A DNA stretch of 64,000 nt from Fibrobacter sp. GTDB taxonomy: Bacteria > Fibrobacterota > Fibrobacteria > Fibrobacterales > Fibrobacteraceae. Where the stretch lies: NCBI GenBank assembly GCA_024398935.1, contig JAKSIH010000009.1, positions 1 through 64,000 of the forward strand. Reading direction: 5' to 3'. Below, piece by piece: positions 10,450 through 46,274 of this stretch. Every line of letters starts with the position of its first letter. The stretch's first letter is position 1. A program made the translations under genes and the position numbers. Below the pieces are notes generated by a model. That model saw nothing but the letters and a program-made list of their open reading frames with translations. It was not told where the DNA came from and searched no databases.

Positions 10450-13400
10450 ATGAAACTCTTGAAATTTTTTGCTCCAGCAATGACTGTAGCGTCGGTGGCG
10501 GCTCTTTTGGCCGCTTGCGGTGACGATTCCTCCAATTCAGGAAATTCCAATAACACATCCGGGAACATTCCCGAATACGAAACCGCCGAGGACATGGTCC
10601 ATTGCACCAAGAGCCATTACGGCGAGTTTGCCTATGTCGCCGATGAAGACACCTACTACGAATGTACCAGCGACGGCTGGAGTGAAATCGATGCAGAAGA
10701 CATTGACGAACAAGGCAAGTCATCCTCTTCTGTGTCTGATGATGAAAAAAGTAGTTCTAGCGAAAAGACCGACGAAAAGGATACTGCAGCCGTGGAAGTC
10801 CAGAAAGTGGACTCTGTAACGGTAATGGGTGTTGCTGAAAAAGGCCCTTATGCAAAAGATGGCGCAGTGACGATCTATGGCTTGGACAGTGCTTTTGGAA
10901 AAACGAAGAATACCTTCAAAGGAAAGATATCCGATGATGCTGGGTCTTTCAGCATTGCAGGTGTAACCCTTGAAAATCAGTACGCGATTGTCGAAGCGAA
11001 CGGTTTTTTCATGAATGAAATGACCGGTAAGAAAACTTCTGGCACAAAGACCACTTTGGGAGCCCTTGTGGACTTGAGCGACAAGGATACTGTTAAGGTC
11101 AATGTGAATGTGCTTACCGAATTGGAAAAGGCTCGAGCTCTTTACCTTGTGCAGAACGAAAAGTATAATGTTCCCGCTGCAAAGAAACGTGCTACTAAAG
11201 AAATTTTGTCTGCCCTCGGTGTTAAGTCAGATTCCGTTTCTGCAACAGAATTGACCTTGATGGGAAAGGATGCAGAAACTGTTGGTCTTTATTTCGCGTC
11301 GATCGCTTTGCTAGGAGATCTTTCTCCCTCCAAGTTCAATAACCGTATGGAGGAACTGTCTGAATCCTTTGCTGTGACGGGCTCAATTAGCGATACTCTT
11401 CAAGCTGAAATTGCAGATTTCCTGAGTCAGGCAGATTCTATTGATGGATTTGCTTCCATCATGAAAAATGTGAAGGCTGTGAATGAAAAGGTTCCTGCTT
11501 TTGACAAGATGCTTTATACTTATTGGGTTGAAAATTATGGGCTGCCTGATTGTACTTCTGAAAAAGAAGAGTCCATCGAGAAAAATGCAAACAAACTGAG
11601 CGCAAGCTATAAAGCTGGCTTTGCTTGTACCAGTAACCGTTGGCATAAGTCTACGGCCCTGGATACGGAACTGGGACTTTGCGTTGCAAAAACAGAGGGG
11701 GCTTATAAGAAAAGTGAAAGTGAAAAGTTCTACACCTGTAAGGACGGTGTATGGAGAGAAATCACTAGTACCCAATATGAGCTTAAGGAATGTTCCGAAG
11801 CTCGCAATGGAGAATACAAGTCTGTAGATGAGAACTTCTTCTTGTGTAAGGACAAACAGTGGATCGAGCTGAATGCTGTTGAATTTGAATTAAAGGATTG
11901 TAATGTTGAAAATCAGTATTCTGTTGTGAAAACTGAAGCTGATGGAAATAGCTACGTTTGCGTAGAAGCTTCTTGGCGTGAAGCAACTGATGTTGAAGCT
12001 GAATTTGGATATTGCTCTAAAGCTGATTCTACTAAGTTCAATAAATTTGAATCTGATGGTAAGTACTATGTTTGCCTGAAAGATGGCTGGACCGCAGTGG
12101 ATGATACTGTAGGTCATTTGGGATTCTGCACGGATAAGAATCAGAGGACTGTTGCTCAGAATTTAGAATCCAAGGATTACTACATGTGCGTTGATGGTTC
12201 TTGGCGAGGTGCTTCTGATGTAGAAGCTGAATTTGGGTATTGTGCTACTGCGGATTCAACCAAGTTCAATCAATTGAAGTCTGATGGCAAGTATTATGTT
12301 TGTCTTGATAAAGGTTGGACTGCGGTGAGTGATACGATTGGTCATATTGGTTTTTGCACTGATAAGAACAAGCAGACTGTTGTACGTGATTTGGTTTCCA
12401 AGACGTATTATGTTTGTGAAGGTGGAAAATGGCGTGGTGCCTCAAGTGTTGAAAGTGAACATGGTTATTGCTCTAACCCTGACAGTACTGTGTTTAAGAA
12501 GGAAACTTCATCAGGATCTTATTACGTCTGTTTGAACAGTGGATGGACTAAGGTGAGTAATCTAGTTGGCTTGTTTGGCTTCTGTACCAAGAATAGAACG
12601 GGGGATCGTGGAATTGATCCTGATTCTCGTGTCACTTATATCTGTGAAAACGAGGCTTGGAGAAAAGCGTCAAGTCCTGAAAAGGAATTTGGTTTGTGCG
12701 GAACAGAAGAACAGTATGTTGAGAGTGAAGATGGATACTATTATCGTTGTGCCTCCAACCAGTGGAATTCTATTGATTCTGCAACATATTATTTAGAAAA
12801 GGTTTGCTCTGCTGATGTGAACCTTGGCGAGCGAGCTTCTGTTACACTTCGATATGGCGGAGACAGAGTTGCTTTATATTTCCGTTGTAGTGTTGATGGT
12901 TTTAAAAGGGCGTATTGGGGCGTAATTTCGTCGTATGAATATGCAAATGGCGTTTGTGGTGTGGATGATGTTGGCTATACTGTGACAAAAGACGGCTCTG
13001 GTTTTTGTTCTAGGGATGGGAATATATTAAACGATGTGGAAAATCGCCGTGATTGGGAAATGTGTACCCCAGAGATTAACCGTAGGTTTGTCTGGGACGG
13101 CGGACAACCATATATGTGTATGGGTAGTAGTAACACATATGGCAAGTATACCTATTCTACAATGAAGGATTCTCGCGATGGAAAAACATATAATACTATT
13201 GTTATAGGGAATCAGGTTTGGTTGGCAGAGGATTTGGATTATGATTACAATAAAGGTACCGCTAAAAATTATAAACTCAACTCTAGCCGTATGTATAAGT
13301 GGTCTGCAGCGATGGACAGTGCAGGTGTTTTTTCTACAAAATCAAAAGGCTGTGGTGATGGAAAAACTTGTACAGCAGGATCTTCGAGTAGTTCAACAGT

Positions 13401-13773
13401 TCAAGGCGTTTGCCCTTCAGGATGGCATTTGCCTAATAGAAACGATTGGAATACTCTGTTTTCTGCAGTAGGCGGAACATCGAGTGCAGGAGAAATGTTG
13501 CGTTCAACAAGCTGTTGGAATTCGAGCGTAGGTAGTGTGACGATTTGTTATCATGGAAAGGACTATTACGGATTTCATGCAGAGCCTGTTGGTTATTATG
13601 ATAACGATAAAAATGATTTTTACGGAATGCAAAAGAACGTGGGATATTGGACCTCCGAAGAATCTACCTCGAATGCAGCATATTATACTAGGCTGAATAC
13701 GCGTTCAGATGTATCCATCTCAACAGATTCAAAATCATTATACAGCTATCCCGTTCGTTGTGTCAAGGATTAA
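10450..13773 (+). CDS. Large FISUMP-domain lipoprotein with tandem two-Cys repeats
   Basis: 1107 residues. The signal peptide ends in the lipobox LLAAC, followed by a Ser-rich linker. Residues about 115-215 resemble a small carboxypeptidase-regulatory-like beta domain (VTVMGVAEKGPYAKDGAVTIY), then a helical segment. Residues about 370-780 are tandem units of about 38 residues, each with a YxC...W...C pattern (for example YYVCLKDGWTAVDDT). At DNA level they form a 228-bp super-period whose equivalent positions fall at 11971, 12199, 12427 and 12655. The C-terminus is a FISUMP domain (SRDGKTYNTIVIGNQVWLAEDL, GWHLPNRNDW, YWTSEES, YPVRCVKD). It is probably anchored to the outer membrane with a disulfide-stabilised stalk carrying the FISUMP head; ligand and partner are unknown. 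It is monocistronic with its own terminator. Confidence 0.88.
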   Translation: MKLLKFFAPAMTVASVAALLAACGDDSSNSGNSNNTSGNIPEYETAEDMVHCTKSHYGEFAYVADEDTYYECTSDGWSEIDAEDIDEQGKSSSSVSDDEKSSSSEKTDEKDTAAVEVQKVDSVTVMGVAEKGPYAKDGAVTIYGLDSAFGKTKNTFKGKISDDAGSFSIAGVTLENQYAIVEANGFFMNEMTGKKTSGTKTTLGALVDLSDKDTVKVNVNVLTELEKARALYLVQNEKYNVPAAKKRATKEILSALGVKSDSVSATELTLMGKDAETVGLYFASIALLGDLSPSKFNNRMEELSESFAVTGSISDTLQAEIADFLSQADSIDGFASIMKNVKAVNEKVPAFDKMLYTYWVENYGLPDCTSEKEESIEKNANKLSASYKAGFACTSNRWHKSTALDTELGLCVAKTEGAYKKSESEKFYTCKDGVWREITSTQYELKECSEARNGEYKSVDENFFLCKDKQWIELNAVEFELKDCNVENQYSVVKTEADGNSYVCVEASWREATDVEAEFGYCSKADSTKFNKFESDGKYYVCLKDGWTAVDDTVGHLGFCTDKNQRTVAQNLESKDYYMCVDGSWRGASDVEAEFGYCATADSTKFNQLKSDGKYYVCLDKGWTAVSDTIGHIGFCTDKNKQTVVRDLVSKTYYVCEGGKWRGASSVESEHGYCSNPDSTVFKKETSSGSYYVCLNSGWTKVSNLVGLFGFCTKNRTGDRGIDPDSRVTYICENEAWRKASSPEKEFGLCGTEEQYVESEDGYYYRCASNQWNSIDSATYYLEKVCSADVNLGERASVTLRYGGDRVALYFRCSVDGFKRAYWGVISSYEYANGVCGVDDVGYTVTKDGSGFCSRDGNILNDVENRRDWEMCTPEINRRFVWDGGQPYMCMGSSNTYGKYTYSTMKDSRDGKTYNTIVIGNQVWLAEDLDYDYNKGTAKNYKLNSSRMYKWSAAMDSAGVFSTKSKGCGDGKTCTAGSSSSSTVQGVCPSGWHLPNRNDWNTLFSAVGGTSSAGEMLRSTSCWNSSVGSVTICYHGKDYYGFHAEPVGYYDNDKNDFYGMQKNVGYWTSEESTSNAAYYTRLNTRSDVSISTDSKSLYSYPVRCVKD

Positions 13774-42329: not shown

Positions 42330-42872
42330 GCTTCGGCTTACGTCGTTCTCGGCCCACTCGCCGTACTAGATGTACGGCTTCGGGGCCTGCGGCCTAGTAA
42401 TCCTCGCTTATTCAATCTTTGTACCCCGCGTTGTCTAATCTTCGCGATACGGCATCATTCGGGGGCTCACGTACAAAAGGTACGCTACGCCCTCTCATTC
42501 TTTGTCTCGCTCGTTTCTACGACGCGGGACTTTTTTTTCGGGGCCTGCGTCTGTTCTCGCGAAAGCATGTCTTCCCCCGCGTATCATTTTGTCATCCTCG
42601 CGAAAGCGAGGATCTCACAGAACAAACCTTTCCTGTCATCCCCCGCTTGACGGGGGATCTCGCAGTTATTGTAGACAAAGTATTTTGTTGACTAAATTCA
42701 TTTTTATTCTCTCTTTAAATCAGTTGAAAATCAAAAAAATGGCGAAGCTTCAAAAAATACTTGACTTTGTGTTTTTTTTGGGGGTTACATTTGAATTGTT
42801 TGCCCCTGGTGGTGATTCCCGTGAAATTGGTAGAATCTAGTCTTCGACAATAAACCAAGAATTGAATAAATT
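42330..42872. repeat. 543-bp gene-free stretch with REP-like hairpins
   Basis: No supportable gene. It holds several palindromes: CCGTAC/GTACGG (42361-42377), CGTAC/GTACG (42470-42484), a GTCATCCTCGCGAAAGCGAG element (42591-42616) and a GTCATCCCCCG/CGGGGGAT element (42635-42661). The last two are close relatives of each other and of the GTCATTCTGAG repeats near truB. 42700-42872 is AT-rich, with TTGACT near 42761 as a possible promoter for the FISUMP gene. Confidence 0.7.
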
Positions 42873-43433
42873 ATGAAAAAAATAATAATGCTCATAGGAT
42901 TGCTTTCTGTTTTTTCTTTGGCGGGGACAATGCGTGATTCCCGCGATGGAAAGACCTACAAGACGGTAAAAATTGGCAATCAGGAATGGATGGCCGAGAA
43001 CCTGAATTACAATGCTCAAGGCAGTGTATGCTACGACAATGATCCCGCAAACTGCAGAAAGTATGGTCGTCTTTACACCTGGGATGCCGCACAAGATGCT
43101 TGCCTTGCCGGGTGGCATTTGCCTAGCGCGGGCGAATTTGAAACCTTGCTTGGTTTTGTAGGTGATTCTGGTAAGGAACAAAACGAGGCTTTGCGGTCAT
43201 CAAAATGGAAAAAAGGAAAAGATAAATACGGCTTTTCCGCGCTTCCTGCTGGCGGCTACGGCAGCGGCTACGAGAAGTTCAGCGGCCTTGGCCTCGGCGC
43301 CTACTTTTGGTCTTCGGCGGAGCACATTAGCGGCGTCGCCTACAGCTTGGACATCAGCGACGGCGGCGCGTACGTCGGCAGCTACGATAAGTCAGATGGG
43401 AACTCGGTACGTTGTCTCAAGGACTCTAACTAG
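42873..43433 (+). CDS. Small secreted FISUMP-domain protein with hypervariable-type C-terminus
   Basis: 186 residues: a signal peptide (IIMLIGLLSVFSLAGT, no lipobox), then one FISUMP domain. The domain starts RDSRDGKTYKTVKIGNQEWMAENL, continues through CLAGWHLPSAGEF, and ends FWSSAE, AYSLDI and SVRCLKD. The ending resembles C-type-lectin-like variable proteins of diversity-generating retroelements. Codons 127-171 end in C in 33 of 45 cases, and all six Ser outside the WSS motif are AGC, in contrast to the N-terminal half and to the other FISUMP gene in this window. A strong hairpin spans the stop codon. The role is probably a secreted or surface ligand-binding module; the ligand is unknown. 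Confidence 0.88.
   Translation: MKKIIMLIGLLSVFSLAGTMRDSRDGKTYKTVKIGNQEWMAENLNYNAQGSVCYDNDPANCRKYGRLYTWDAAQDACLAGWHLPSAGEFETLLGFVGDSGKEQNEALRSSKWKKGKDKYGFSALPAGGYGSGYEKFSGLGLGAYFWSSAEHISGVAYSLDISDGGAYVGSYDKSDGNSVRCLKDSN
43251..43385 (+). other. Putative diversity-generating variable region
   Basis: Residues 127-171 of the small FISUMP protein. Most codons are NNC types reachable from AAC by changing only the adenines (AGC, GGC, TAC, GAC, GTC, CAC, ATC, GCC). The fixed motif FWSSAE (145-150) does not follow this rule (TTT TGG TCT TCG GCG GAG). This is the signature expected when an A-rich template repeat is copied by a mutagenic reverse transcriptase. No template or reverse transcriptase is visible in the window. 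Confidence 0.45.
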
Positions 43434-43459
43434 GCATCCACCGCAGGTGGGAAGCCTAG
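43430..43459 (+). other. Hairpin overlapping the FISUMP stop codon
   Basis: CTAGGC pairs with GCCTAG and TCCACC with GGTGGG around GCA, with a small internal loop; the TAG stop lies in the left arm. No U-run follows, so it is not a terminator. Stem-loops just after a variable region are a known feature of diversity-generating retroelement targets. Confidence 0.55.
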
Positions 43460-43491
43460 CCAAGGCTTAGCGAAGCAAAGCCATGTAACAA

Positions 43492-43544
43492 ACAGGAAGA
43501 ACTACGCAGCTGTGCTGCGAAAGTTCTTCCTGTGAAATTTTTTT
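43492..43544 (+). terminator. Strong Rho-independent terminator after the small FISUMP gene
   Basis: ACAGGAAGAACT pairs perfectly with AGTTCTTCCTGT (43492-43503 with 43522-43533). An inner GCAGC/GCTGC hairpin and seven T complete it. Confidence 0.9.
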
Positions 43545-43678
43545 AGAAAAATGCGAATCGACGAAATTTATGCAATGGAAAGCGCAACGAATCAAGTATC
43601 GTTCGTCAAGTAATTCATTTGGTTCTTTATTGACTTTAAATTCGCAAACACCCCAGGAAATCATCTTGGGGTGTTTTT
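43545..43678 (+). ncRNA. Possible short transcript ending in a terminator
   Basis: Between the FISUMP terminator and a second perfect terminator (AACACCCCA/TGGGGTGTT, 43647-43675, T-run to 43678) lie about 100 bp with no credible gene; the only ORF is a 20-codon frame without RBS. A terminator with nothing to terminate suggests a small RNA or the remains of a lost gene. No promoter is identified. Confidence 0.3.
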
Positions 43679-43853
43679 GCATAGTCCTGTTTTTTTCGGC
43701 ATCGCTCCGTTGCTTTGTAAAACTTTGTAAAAGCTGTGAACAAATCTTCTAAAAATACGTGCATATAGCAAGTCCGTGAACGCGGGCCTTTTTCTACAGC
43801 TTAACCCCGTGACCCGTCGGATTTACCGCCCGCCGGAGCGTGTTAAGGAACGT

Positions 43854-44621
43854 ATGAACATTTCAAGAAGGCGAGTACAGCAGCAAATTGCAAAACTTAA
43901 GAAGCGGAAGTTTTTCGACCCCACCTACGATGTGGTTTTCAAGAAGCTTTTCTCAAAGGACGAAACTCTTATCCATTTCCTGAATACGGTCTTGCGGTTG
44001 CGGGGCCGCCGTCGCATCAAGTCCATCGTGCGGCGAAAGCCTGCGGTTGTCTTGACGTCAAAAAATGGACAGGAGGAAGTCCGTTTCGACATTCACGCCA
44101 AGCTGGGGAACGGTCGTTACATAGATTTGGAAATGCAAAGAGCGTCTCACGACGACTTCCTCTGCCGTGTGGATCTGTACGCATCGCAGTTGGCCATCAA
44201 CTCGAAGATCGCCTTTGACAAGTCTCGCCCCGCCAGGGACCGCAAGGACCATCCATATCTGATGCTGCAGACTTATTCTATATGGATCTGCAGCTTCAGG
44301 GGCCCGTTCTGCAAGAGTTACCGCGAGGAGCTGGCGCTGTTTCGCCTAGGCGACGTGGGAAAGTCGGGGGCCTTGCCAGTCTATAATAAAAAGAGGTATA
44401 TTATCTACGACCTGACAAAGTACAAGCCTTCTGGACTGCAAACGTCCGAGGATCTCTGGATGGAAATCTTTACGCAGATGGCGAAGGCGGAAAAGGCTCC
44501 GGAGGTAAAGGACTCGCAAGAGTCCTTTTTTGCATTTCTTTTTTTAGAATTTACCTCCCGACTTGTTCCATATTGGAATATGCCGCAGTGCCATATAATC
44601 CCCTTTTTTTGTTTTATGTAA
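43854..44621 (+). CDS. Rpn-like PD-(D/E)XK nuclease-family transposase gene, 3'-truncated
   Basis: 255 residues from ATG 43854 (AAGG upstream). The opening KKRKFFDPTYDVVFKKLFSKDETLIHFLNTVL and the core VRFDIHAKLGNGRYIDLEMQ, with nuclease-type Asp and ExQ, match the PD-(D/E)XK nuclease-family transposase/Rpn group. YASQLA and the later FRLGD...YDLTKY segments also fit. After residue about 218 the frame runs through a perfect terminator hairpin (44507-44531) and ends in a hydrophobic tail (SFFAFLFLEF) that looks like translated non-coding DNA. The C-terminal part expected in the family is therefore missing, and the gene is probably a remnant. No terminal inverted repeats were found. Confidence 0.72.
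   Translation: MNISRRRVQQQIAKLKKRKFFDPTYDVVFKKLFSKDETLIHFLNTVLRLRGRRRIKSIVRRKPAVVLTSKNGQEEVRFDIHAKLGNGRYIDLEMQRASHDDFLCRVDLYASQLAINSKIAFDKSRPARDRKDHPYLMLQTYSIWICSFRGPFCKSYREELALFRLGDVGKSGALPVYNKKRYIIYDLTKYKPSGLQTSEDLWMEIFTQMAKAEKAPEVKDSQESFFAFLFLEFTSRLVPYWNMPQCHIIPFFCFM
44507..44531 (+). terminator. Perfect terminator hairpin inside the Rpn-like reading frame
   Basis: AAAGGACTC pairs with GAGTCCTTT around GCAA, followed by T. It lies 90 bases before the frame's stop codon. Confidence 0.85.
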
Positions 44622-44675
44622 TCTTTTCGTTTACAATTAGTATAAGTTAAGAGAGGATGGTCATTAGGTGCTCCT

Positions 44676-46274
44676 ATGGTGAATTTTAGGCAGATTTCAG
44701 AATCCTTCGAAACCGCGGTGGAAAATCGCGAGTTTTCCGTTTATTTCCAGCCACAGTTTAATCACTCTACAGGTGCGTTAATCGGTGCGGAAGCTCTTGT
44801 TCGCTGGATTTCTCCGAAACATGGCTTTATTTCTCCGGCGGACTTTGTCCCCGCATTAGAAGAAATGGGCTTGATTCCCGTTCTTGATTTGTATGTATTT
44901 GACTGTGTCTGTGACTTCCTGAAGAAATGTATTGATAGTGGAAAGGCTCTTGCCAGAATTTCCGTGAATATGTCTCGCAATGATATCTTGTGCGAAGACT
45001 ATATTGACCGTCTGGATGCTATTCGCCAGAAGTATGGCGTTCCCACGCGACTCATCCATGTTGAACTGACCGAAACAGCTGCTGTTTCCGGTGCAAACGT
45101 TGTGGTTTCTGCTATCAAGAAATTGCACGACTTGGGATACACTGTTGAAATGGATGATTTCGGCAGTGGCTATTCTTCCCTGAACATTTTAAAGGACATT
45201 GAATTTGATGTCCTGAAGCTGGATTTGAAGTTTATTGAGGGCGCTATCGGCAGCGAACGTGGTGGAACCATCTTGAGTTCCGTGGTCCGCATGGCCAAGT
45301 GGCTTAAATTGCCTGTCATTGCCGAGGGCGTTGAAACGGTTGAACAGGCGGATTTCCTCAAGAGTGTGGGCTGTGATTATATTCAAGGTTTCCTTTATTC
45401 CAAACCGATTCCGGCCACTGAGTACGAAAAACTTTTGAGTGGTAAATCTATAGGAACCATGGTTCCGCAGATGAATATCGACCAGTTTATTGATGCGGGT
45501 CGTTTCTGGAACCCGACTTCCATAGAAACCCTCATCTTTAGCAATTTTGTGGGGGCTGCTGCGATTATTGAAGTGAACAATGATTTCAGCTCCATAGATA
45601 TTTTGCGAGTAAACCAGAAGTACGTTCGTGAACTTGGAATGAACTTGTCCGAAAGAGATATCATTTCCATTAAGCCCTACGACACTTTGGATGGTGATTC
45701 CAAGGAAATTTATAAGGCAACCCTTGAAAAGGTTGCTTCAACCCGTGAAGAACAGGAATGTGAAACCTGGCGAAATATCTCCTCGGATTGTTGCGGTACA
45801 GAAAAAGTTTGTGTTCGTAGCTCCATCCAGCTGATTGGCGAAAGCAAGGTAAGTCGCCTGCTCTACGTAATGATTCGAAACATTACTTCTGAAAAACAGA
45901 CTCAGCAGGATTTTGTCCGTCGAGAAGAAAACTTTAAGGCCGCGGTAGAACAAGCCAATATGTTCTTGTGGGAATATACCATTGCCACCAAGGAGATGCG
46001 CCCTTGTTTCCGCTGTCAAAGGGAACTGGGCTTGCCGCCCCTGATTCGCAACTACCCGGAACCTCTTATCGAAAGTGGATTGTTCCCGGCAGATTATGCG
46101 GATATGTATAGGGATTGGATGCGTCAGATTGACAACGGGTTGAAATCGATCGAGGGCGTGATTCCCTTGACTGCGAGTCGAATACCTTTCCACGTTCGTT
46201 ACACCACGGAATATGACGAAATTGGTCGTCCAGTAAAGGCTTATGGATCGGCTACGCTGGTGGTGGATAAATAA
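44676..46274 (+). CDS. EAL-domain c-di-GMP phosphodiesterase with C-terminal sensory region
   Basis: 532 residues. The EAL domain (about 1-255) keeps all catalytic motifs: AEALVRW, the Asn in NMSRND, HVELTETAA, MDDFGSGYSSL, LKLDLKF, IAEGVET and YIQGFLYSKP. It should therefore hydrolyse cyclic di-GMP. The rest has no GGDEF; residues about 280-410 and 415-530 look like two PAS-type domains (IEVNNDFSSIDILRVNQKYVRELG and FLWEYTIATKEMRPCF). It is unusual in placing EAL first and sensors last. It has no membrane segment, so it is cytoplasmic. AGGTG lies 5 nt before the ATG. It is monocistronic with a terminator. Confidence 0.9.
   Translation: MVNFRQISESFETAVENREFSVYFQPQFNHSTGALIGAEALVRWISPKHGFISPADFVPALEEMGLIPVLDLYVFDCVCDFLKKCIDSGKALARISVNMSRNDILCEDYIDRLDAIRQKYGVPTRLIHVELTETAAVSGANVVVSAIKKLHDLGYTVEMDDFGSGYSSLNILKDIEFDVLKLDLKFIEGAIGSERGGTILSSVVRMAKWLKLPVIAEGVETVEQADFLKSVGCDYIQGFLYSKPIPATEYEKLLSGKSIGTMVPQMNIDQFIDAGRFWNPTSIETLIFSNFVGAAAIIEVNNDFSSIDILRVNQKYVRELGMNLSERDIISIKPYDTLDGDSKEIYKATLEKVASTREEQECETWRNISSDCCGTEKVCVRSSIQLIGESKVSRLLYVMIRNITSEKQTQQDFVRREENFKAAVEQANMFLWEYTIATKEMRPCFRCQRELGLPPLIRNYPEPLIESGLFPADYADMYRDWMRQIDNGLKSIEGVIPLTASRIPFHVRYTTEYDEIGRPVKAYGSATLVVDK

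Follow-up and report, generated by a model that had tools for sequence, protein, structure and literature searches.

A FISUMP gene of Fibrobacter as a likely remote target of a diversity-generating retroelement within the remnant of a cassette

The window (the whole stretch of 64,000 nucleotides that was analysed) is part of contig C76 of a Fibrobacter MAG whose assembly comprises 76 contigs with a total of 2.92 Mb (82.6% complete, estimated contamination 0.2%). Its best protein hits are records named Fibrobacter, and the locus is shared by neighbours in the genus. The locus described here centres on the gene of a 186-residue protein, and its features are listed in Table 1. The protein contains a single FISUMP domain (TIGR02145, E=4e-52; Pfam Fib_succ_major, E=1e-23) with a weak sequence match to Lcl_C too. 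Its N-terminus exhibits a stretch, MKKIIMLIGLLSVFSLAG, that resembles a signal peptide by eye. FISUMP domains have so far been explained as possible cellulose-binding or cohesin-like modules. They form the signature expanded family of Fibrobacter (TIGR02145), with 17-119 copies per genome in the Fibrobacteres that have them, and their function has only been guessed (PMC4704652).

Table 1. Coordinates of the features at the FISUMP locus of the window.
Feature	Position	Strand	Basis or remark
Target gene, 186-residue FISUMP protein	42873..43433	+	ORF translation and domain searches
Variable region core, ungapped to the C36 template repeat, 192 nt	43239..43430	+	TR-VR alignment
Span with all adenine substitutions	43254..43400	+	38/64 TR adenines changed, 1/83 non-adenines changed
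Invariant 3' end of the variable region, candidate IMH-like segment	43401..43430	+	Equal to the TR, nearly equal to the cis VRs
Hairpin over the stop codon	43430..43459	+	12 bp, two small bulges, 3-nt GCA loop
Post-hairpin segment CCAAGGCTTAGCGAAGCAAAGCC	43460..43482	+	Conserved across Fibrobacter genomes
Terminator-like stem-loop, then T run	43492..43533	+	Nearly identical 3' of the C36 cis target
Relic of Avd-fusion accessory gene, first ~17-20 codons then stop	43551..43613	+	Alignment to C36
Deletion junction, ~107 bp without match	43601..43707	.	Stands in place of 2.0 kb of C36 that hold the accessory gene, TR, and RT
Counterpart of the post-RT sequence of C36, 90% identical	43708..44514	+	Alignment; domain searches
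3'-truncated copy of PDDEXK_2/Rpn-like gene	ORF 43776-44621	+	Alignment; domain searches
Block missing from relative G031, limits approximate	42450..44680	.	Comparison with G031

The first-pass annotation had proposed from the codons that the gene ends in the variable region (VR) of a remote target of a diversity-generating retroelement (DGR). Its counts were exact when recounted. Codons 127-171 end in C in 33 of 45 cases, and the N-terminal half is mixed (27 C-ending codons among codons 1-120). All six Ser codons of 127-171 outside the WSS motif (131, 137, 153, 158, 162, and 170) are AGC, and the FWSSAE core uses unrelated codons, with TCT and TCG for the WSS serines. The gene at 10450-13773 lacks the bias, as 12 of the 60 codons of its FISUMP C-terminus end in C.

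The genome was searched with the variable segment, and four further copies were identified in a row on contig C36. The genome was also searched for reverse transcriptases (RTs), one of which adjoins these copies. The minus strand of C36 carries, in this order, two FISUMP genes (221 aa and, with two domains, 381 aa), an accessory gene (207 aa), an A-rich repeat, the RT, and finally a PDDEXK_2/Rpn-like gene. This cassette has three FISUMP variable regions in cis, and its A-rich template repeat (TR) translates to ALPAGNYNSNNKKFNNLGNNANFWSSTENNSNNAYNLNISDDDANVNNNNKTNGNSVRC. The RT is of DGR type with an intact catalytic motif (RVT_1, E=1e-14; phrog_1423 RT, E=2e-86). DGR RTs are expected to carry the motif IGxxxSQ, and the RTs of C36 and of another contig, C67, which are 62% identical, both exhibit YVDD and IGNLTSQ. 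The C67 locus (L055, C67:33000-45000) is likewise a complete DGR, the second in this genome; it has a TR of its own, and its single cis target lies in a FISUMP protein of 1023 aa. The earlier reading had called for a near-identical A-rich copy of the variable segment, a DGR-type RT, and an avd gene somewhere in the genome, and all are present on C36, with the accessory protein being Avd-like in its C-terminal half. Because both RT and TR were found, the reading does not fall for want of either. The C36 cassette thus combines a DGR-type RT, an adjoining TR nearly identical to the VR save at adenines, and an Avd-like accessory protein. As judged from the sequences, C36 is the holder of the template and the machinery, and the window gene equals that template except at adenines. 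C36 and C76 are separate contigs, with a small chance that mis-binning of the MAG brought them together.

The accessory protein is a fusion of two parts and exhibits weak sequence matches to Avd models (NCBIfam, E=1.6e-4; PHROG Avd, E=0.005). Sequence-profile searches of the PDB gave nothing useful for the FISUMP or the accessory protein, and fold comparison was therefore needed. The C-terminal part of the accessory protein is modelled as a four-helix bundle whose fold matches 4dwl and 8ub7 (Bordetella Avd as well as Avd chains within the DGR ribonucleoprotein) with a probability of ~1.00. The N-terminal part is modelled with low confidence and could be assigned to no family; it may resemble the MutS-like 'MSL' type of DGR accessory domain. 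In a consulted paper that mentions both MutS and DGRs, MutS comes up with regard to mismatch repair and the term MSL is absent. The accessory protein of C36 (L054 11523-12146) is shorter than its relatives, with ~45 residues missing between its halves, and the C36 DGR may be weakened on that account.

The model of the window FISUMP protein has a pLDDT of 87.6. Its best PDB match is the C-terminal domain of Legionella Lcl (8q4e; probability 0.99, E=0.04, TM 0.34/0.46), and C-type lectins rank below it; the scores are modest. In the sources consulted, this Lcl domain is not reported as a DGR target. The fold match together with the signal peptide supports the reading of the window FISUMP domain as an extracellular ligand-binding domain. 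Plant polysaccharide, other microbes, and phage are possible ligands.

The window VR and the C36 TR differ at 40 of the 192 aligned positions, and 38 of these differences fall among the 72 TR adenines (hypergeometric P=8.7e-18). The adenines were changed to G (28), T (8), and C (2), and 21 of the 23 AAY codons of the TR are altered in the window gene. The codon bias is therefore far beyond chance, because its source, the template, is present in the genome and the differences are concentrated in this way. The cis VRs of C36 exhibit the same pattern, with 34/34, 32/32, and 31/37 of their differences from the TR at adenines. At the 3' end, a candidate IMH-like segment consists of 30 invariant bases followed by TAGG in the window VR and by GAGG in the TR, and GAGG is also found in one cis VR. 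The proposal of a remote target thus held, with the VR at the 3' end of the gene and on a contig other than that of the RT. The limits first given for the variable segment were refined to a rewritten span within the core that aligns to the TR (Table 1).

The 12-bp stem-loop that had been noted over the stop codon is indeed present and spans the TAG at 43431-43433. No such hairpin follows the C36 TR. Equivalents on contigs C36 and C26 of the window genome and in further Fibrobacter genomes have changed inner stem bases (CCACC/GGTGG, CCGTC/GGCGG, and CCGCC/GGCGG) between constant flanks. When seven distinct sequences are aligned, pairing holds in 97.6% of cells and two pairs are changed on both sides, whereas slid versions pair at 20-50%. 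These apparent compensatory changes are supportive of a conserved stem and are not conclusive, since the seven sequences are related. In the 381-aa cis target, the first domain has no stop-codon hairpin; another predicted hairpin follows its VR inside the coding sequence (L054 12800-12845).

The similarity to C36 extends beyond the gene. The window aligns to C36 through the gene, the VR, the hairpin, and the terminator, and the match ends ~17-20 codons into the accessory gene. It restarts 107 bp further on in the window, at a place that lies 7 bp beyond the RT stop codon on C36, and runs into the PDDEXK_2 gene at 90% identity. Since the match stops at the start of the accessory gene and resumes after the RT, the cassette has kept both of its ends here but lost what lay between them, namely accessory gene, TR, and RT. 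In G031, the nearest relative searched, ilvC (98% identical at its end to that of the window genome) is directly followed by an EAL-domain gene, and nothing of the block lies between them. The two sides of the relic and the empty site in G031 point to the remote target as an inserted cassette minus its accessory gene, TR, and RT. The block is either an insertion in the window lineage or a loss in the G031 lineage, and insertion is the simpler because an intact version sits elsewhere, on C36. The whole cassette, or its ends, would have entered between ilvC and the EAL gene and would then have lost the accessory gene, TR, and RT, leaving the target behind. PDDEXK_2/Rpn-like genes adjoin FISUMP genes at four loci of this genome (window 43708-44621 and contigs C36, C57, and C11), and such a gene is a possible agent of target dispersal.

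We consider it likely that the window gene ends in the variable region of a remote DGR target, that this region received RT copying errors in trans, and that the locus arose by decay of a cassette. The C36 RT would make errors at adenines when it copies the TR RNA, and the resulting cDNA would replace 43239-43430 of the window gene in trans. The hairpin over the stop codon is the putative recognition signal for this step. The product would be a secreted C-type-lectin-like FISUMP domain with ~21 variable residues that most likely binds an external ligand. Composition by itself could look like codon bias or like selection for loops rich in Gly, Ser, and Tyr with no DGR involved, yet a template with matching non-adenine bases and an RT are both in the genome. 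Such an origin has next to no probability, and plain codon bias was rejected by the TR-VR comparison, in which the differences are concentrated at TR adenines.

The source of the rewriting is indicated by the non-adenine sites. The window VR is identical to the C36 TR at 118 of 120 of them (98%). By comparison, the part of the gene upstream of the VR has 73-74% identity to C36, while the accessory relic reaches 88% and the PDDEXK segment 90%. At 9.5% divergence, the probability of two or fewer non-adenine changes is 6e-4. A TR of the window locus itself, now lost, should have drifted by 10-26% like the other shared parts, so rewriting from the C36 TR is favoured. Alternatively, all rewriting of the VR might date from before the deletion, with none since, and be due to the cassette's own TR and RT. 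These are plainly lost at the window locus, leftover targets are known in Treponema denticola (PMC4891356), the 99% complete genomes of G031 and G035 carry VR-like FISUMP genes with no RVT_1 match, and two non-adenine changes are present in the window VR. We regard this frozen state as unlikely, because the accessory relic and the PDDEXK segment have diverged by 10-12% and the rest of the gene by 26%, yet only 2/120 non-adenine VR sites differ, and a separate lost TR would be expected to drift too. The segment 43466-43550, which lies 3' of the hairpin and outside the TR, is still 97.6% identical to C36, so the closeness to C36 could partly reflect ordinary recombination or constraint. The same segment fits an already diversified VR that was copied from a C36-type target by ordinary recombination, with no retrohoming at the window locus. 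This is very improbable, as a comparison with any one of the cis VRs shows the window VR to be different at 36-38 of the 72 TR-adenine sites and at only 2-8 of the 120 others. It copies none of the three, and the donor would therefore have to be missing from the assembly. Within the one assembled genome that forms the basis of this comparison, the window VR was probably rewritten from the C36 TR in trans after the split. When other strains were searched for the window locus, only relatives with 65% identity or less came up. In G032, two contigs are near-identical and were compared in case they represent strain variants; they exhibit no difference within their FISUMP variable regions and therefore give no evidence of activity.

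The first-pass annotation had extended its reading to the FISUMP family as a diversified repertoire. This is supported in part: five of ~90 matches fit a resident TR, ~12 more have the signature, and most FISUMP domains of the genome exhibit none. The signature was identified in ~17 of the 61 C-terminal stretches examined, a set that includes both TRs and a few fragments. The ~12 have C-ending codons and an FWSS-type motif, and those compared to known TRs differ mainly at template adenines; they appear to carry the signature of absent or lost TRs. Five C-termini form the VLPAG.R class (twice on C21, twice on C11, and once on C24; L011, L013, and L033), in which A occurs in 54 of the 62 columns that vary at codon positions 1-2, compared with 83 of 136 in the upstream control. 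Their sequences imply a third AAC-rich template that is absent from the assembly.

RTs of at least 54% identity were identified in 10 of 80 genomes of the genus besides that of the window. G037 has a remote target as well, in which adenines account for 34 of 38 differences, a comparison that leaves out rows L317 and L323, which align to the TR itself. The same genome has a decayed cassette (L144, G037:C1, 7386-8525) made up of a FISUMP target, an accessory gene, and a template of which half is replaced (NYNSNNKKFNNLGNNANFWSST followed by unrelated sequence), with no RT nearby. VR-like FISUMP genes, some of them arrayed, with conserved post-VR hairpins were found at L145, L146, and L153 (G035 and G031) and at L148 (G033). 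On balance, we lean slightly towards a FISUMP family that includes a repertoire made repeatedly by DGRs, in which cassettes spread, lose their TR and RT, and leave scattered targets that resident DGRs may go on rewriting in trans or that become frozen with a fixed specificity, with at least three template classes, one of them without a TR in the assembly, among the ~17 C-termini of the window genome.

The arrangement is comparable to known systems. It is similar to the DGR of Bordetella phage BPP-1 (mtd, avd, TR, and brt) in the substitutions at TR adenines in a C-type-lectin-like C-terminus, the Avd-like accessory protein, and the order target-accessory-TR-RT. BPP-1 also has a hairpin of matching role just 3' of the VR whose stem is kept in structure rather than sequence (PMC3240598), with a 4-nt GRNA loop where the Fibrobacter loop has 3 nt (GCA or GAA). 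However, the Fibrobacter case is chromosomal with several targets, one on another contig, and its Avd-like domain has an additional domain fused to it N-terminally. Fib_succ_major domains were listed in 2014 as DGR targets among the variable proteins of the human microbiome (PMC4159848); those came from metagenome assemblies, with a lipoprotein as the example, whereas the present target is in Fibrobacter, the namesake lineage, and is remote with a cassette relic. Remote and leftover targets are also already known (PMC4891356, PMC7517822). In Treponema denticola, targets lie far from the core and outlast the cassette (PMC4891356), but in Fibrobacter the deletion scar (the start of the accessory gene, then post-RT sequence) and the empty site in a relative are directly readable. 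The cyanobacterial remote variable proteins are likewise dispersed paralogous targets, with transposase-like genes close to them; they are largely signalling-related, whereas those of Fibrobacter are secreted FISUMP proteins with a PDDEXK_2/Rpn-like neighbour (PMC7517822). A literature search, mostly of titles, abstracts, and passages, found no link between DGRs and the FISUMP proteins of Fibrobacter itself. What is new is the cassette remnant on both sides of the junction, by which the origin is unusually readable; FISUMP, remote, and leftover targets had all been reported.

The deletion scar shows one route to remote targets, namely a complete cassette decaying around its target, and surveys that seek the target beside the RT would miss such loci (PMC8144416). 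Part of a large and functionally unexplained FISUMP family is identified as hypervariable, and this subset probably consists of ligand-binding surface proteins. DGR rewriting of the subset would mark the residues that form the binding face, and it suggests that these domains bind ligands while under pressure to change.
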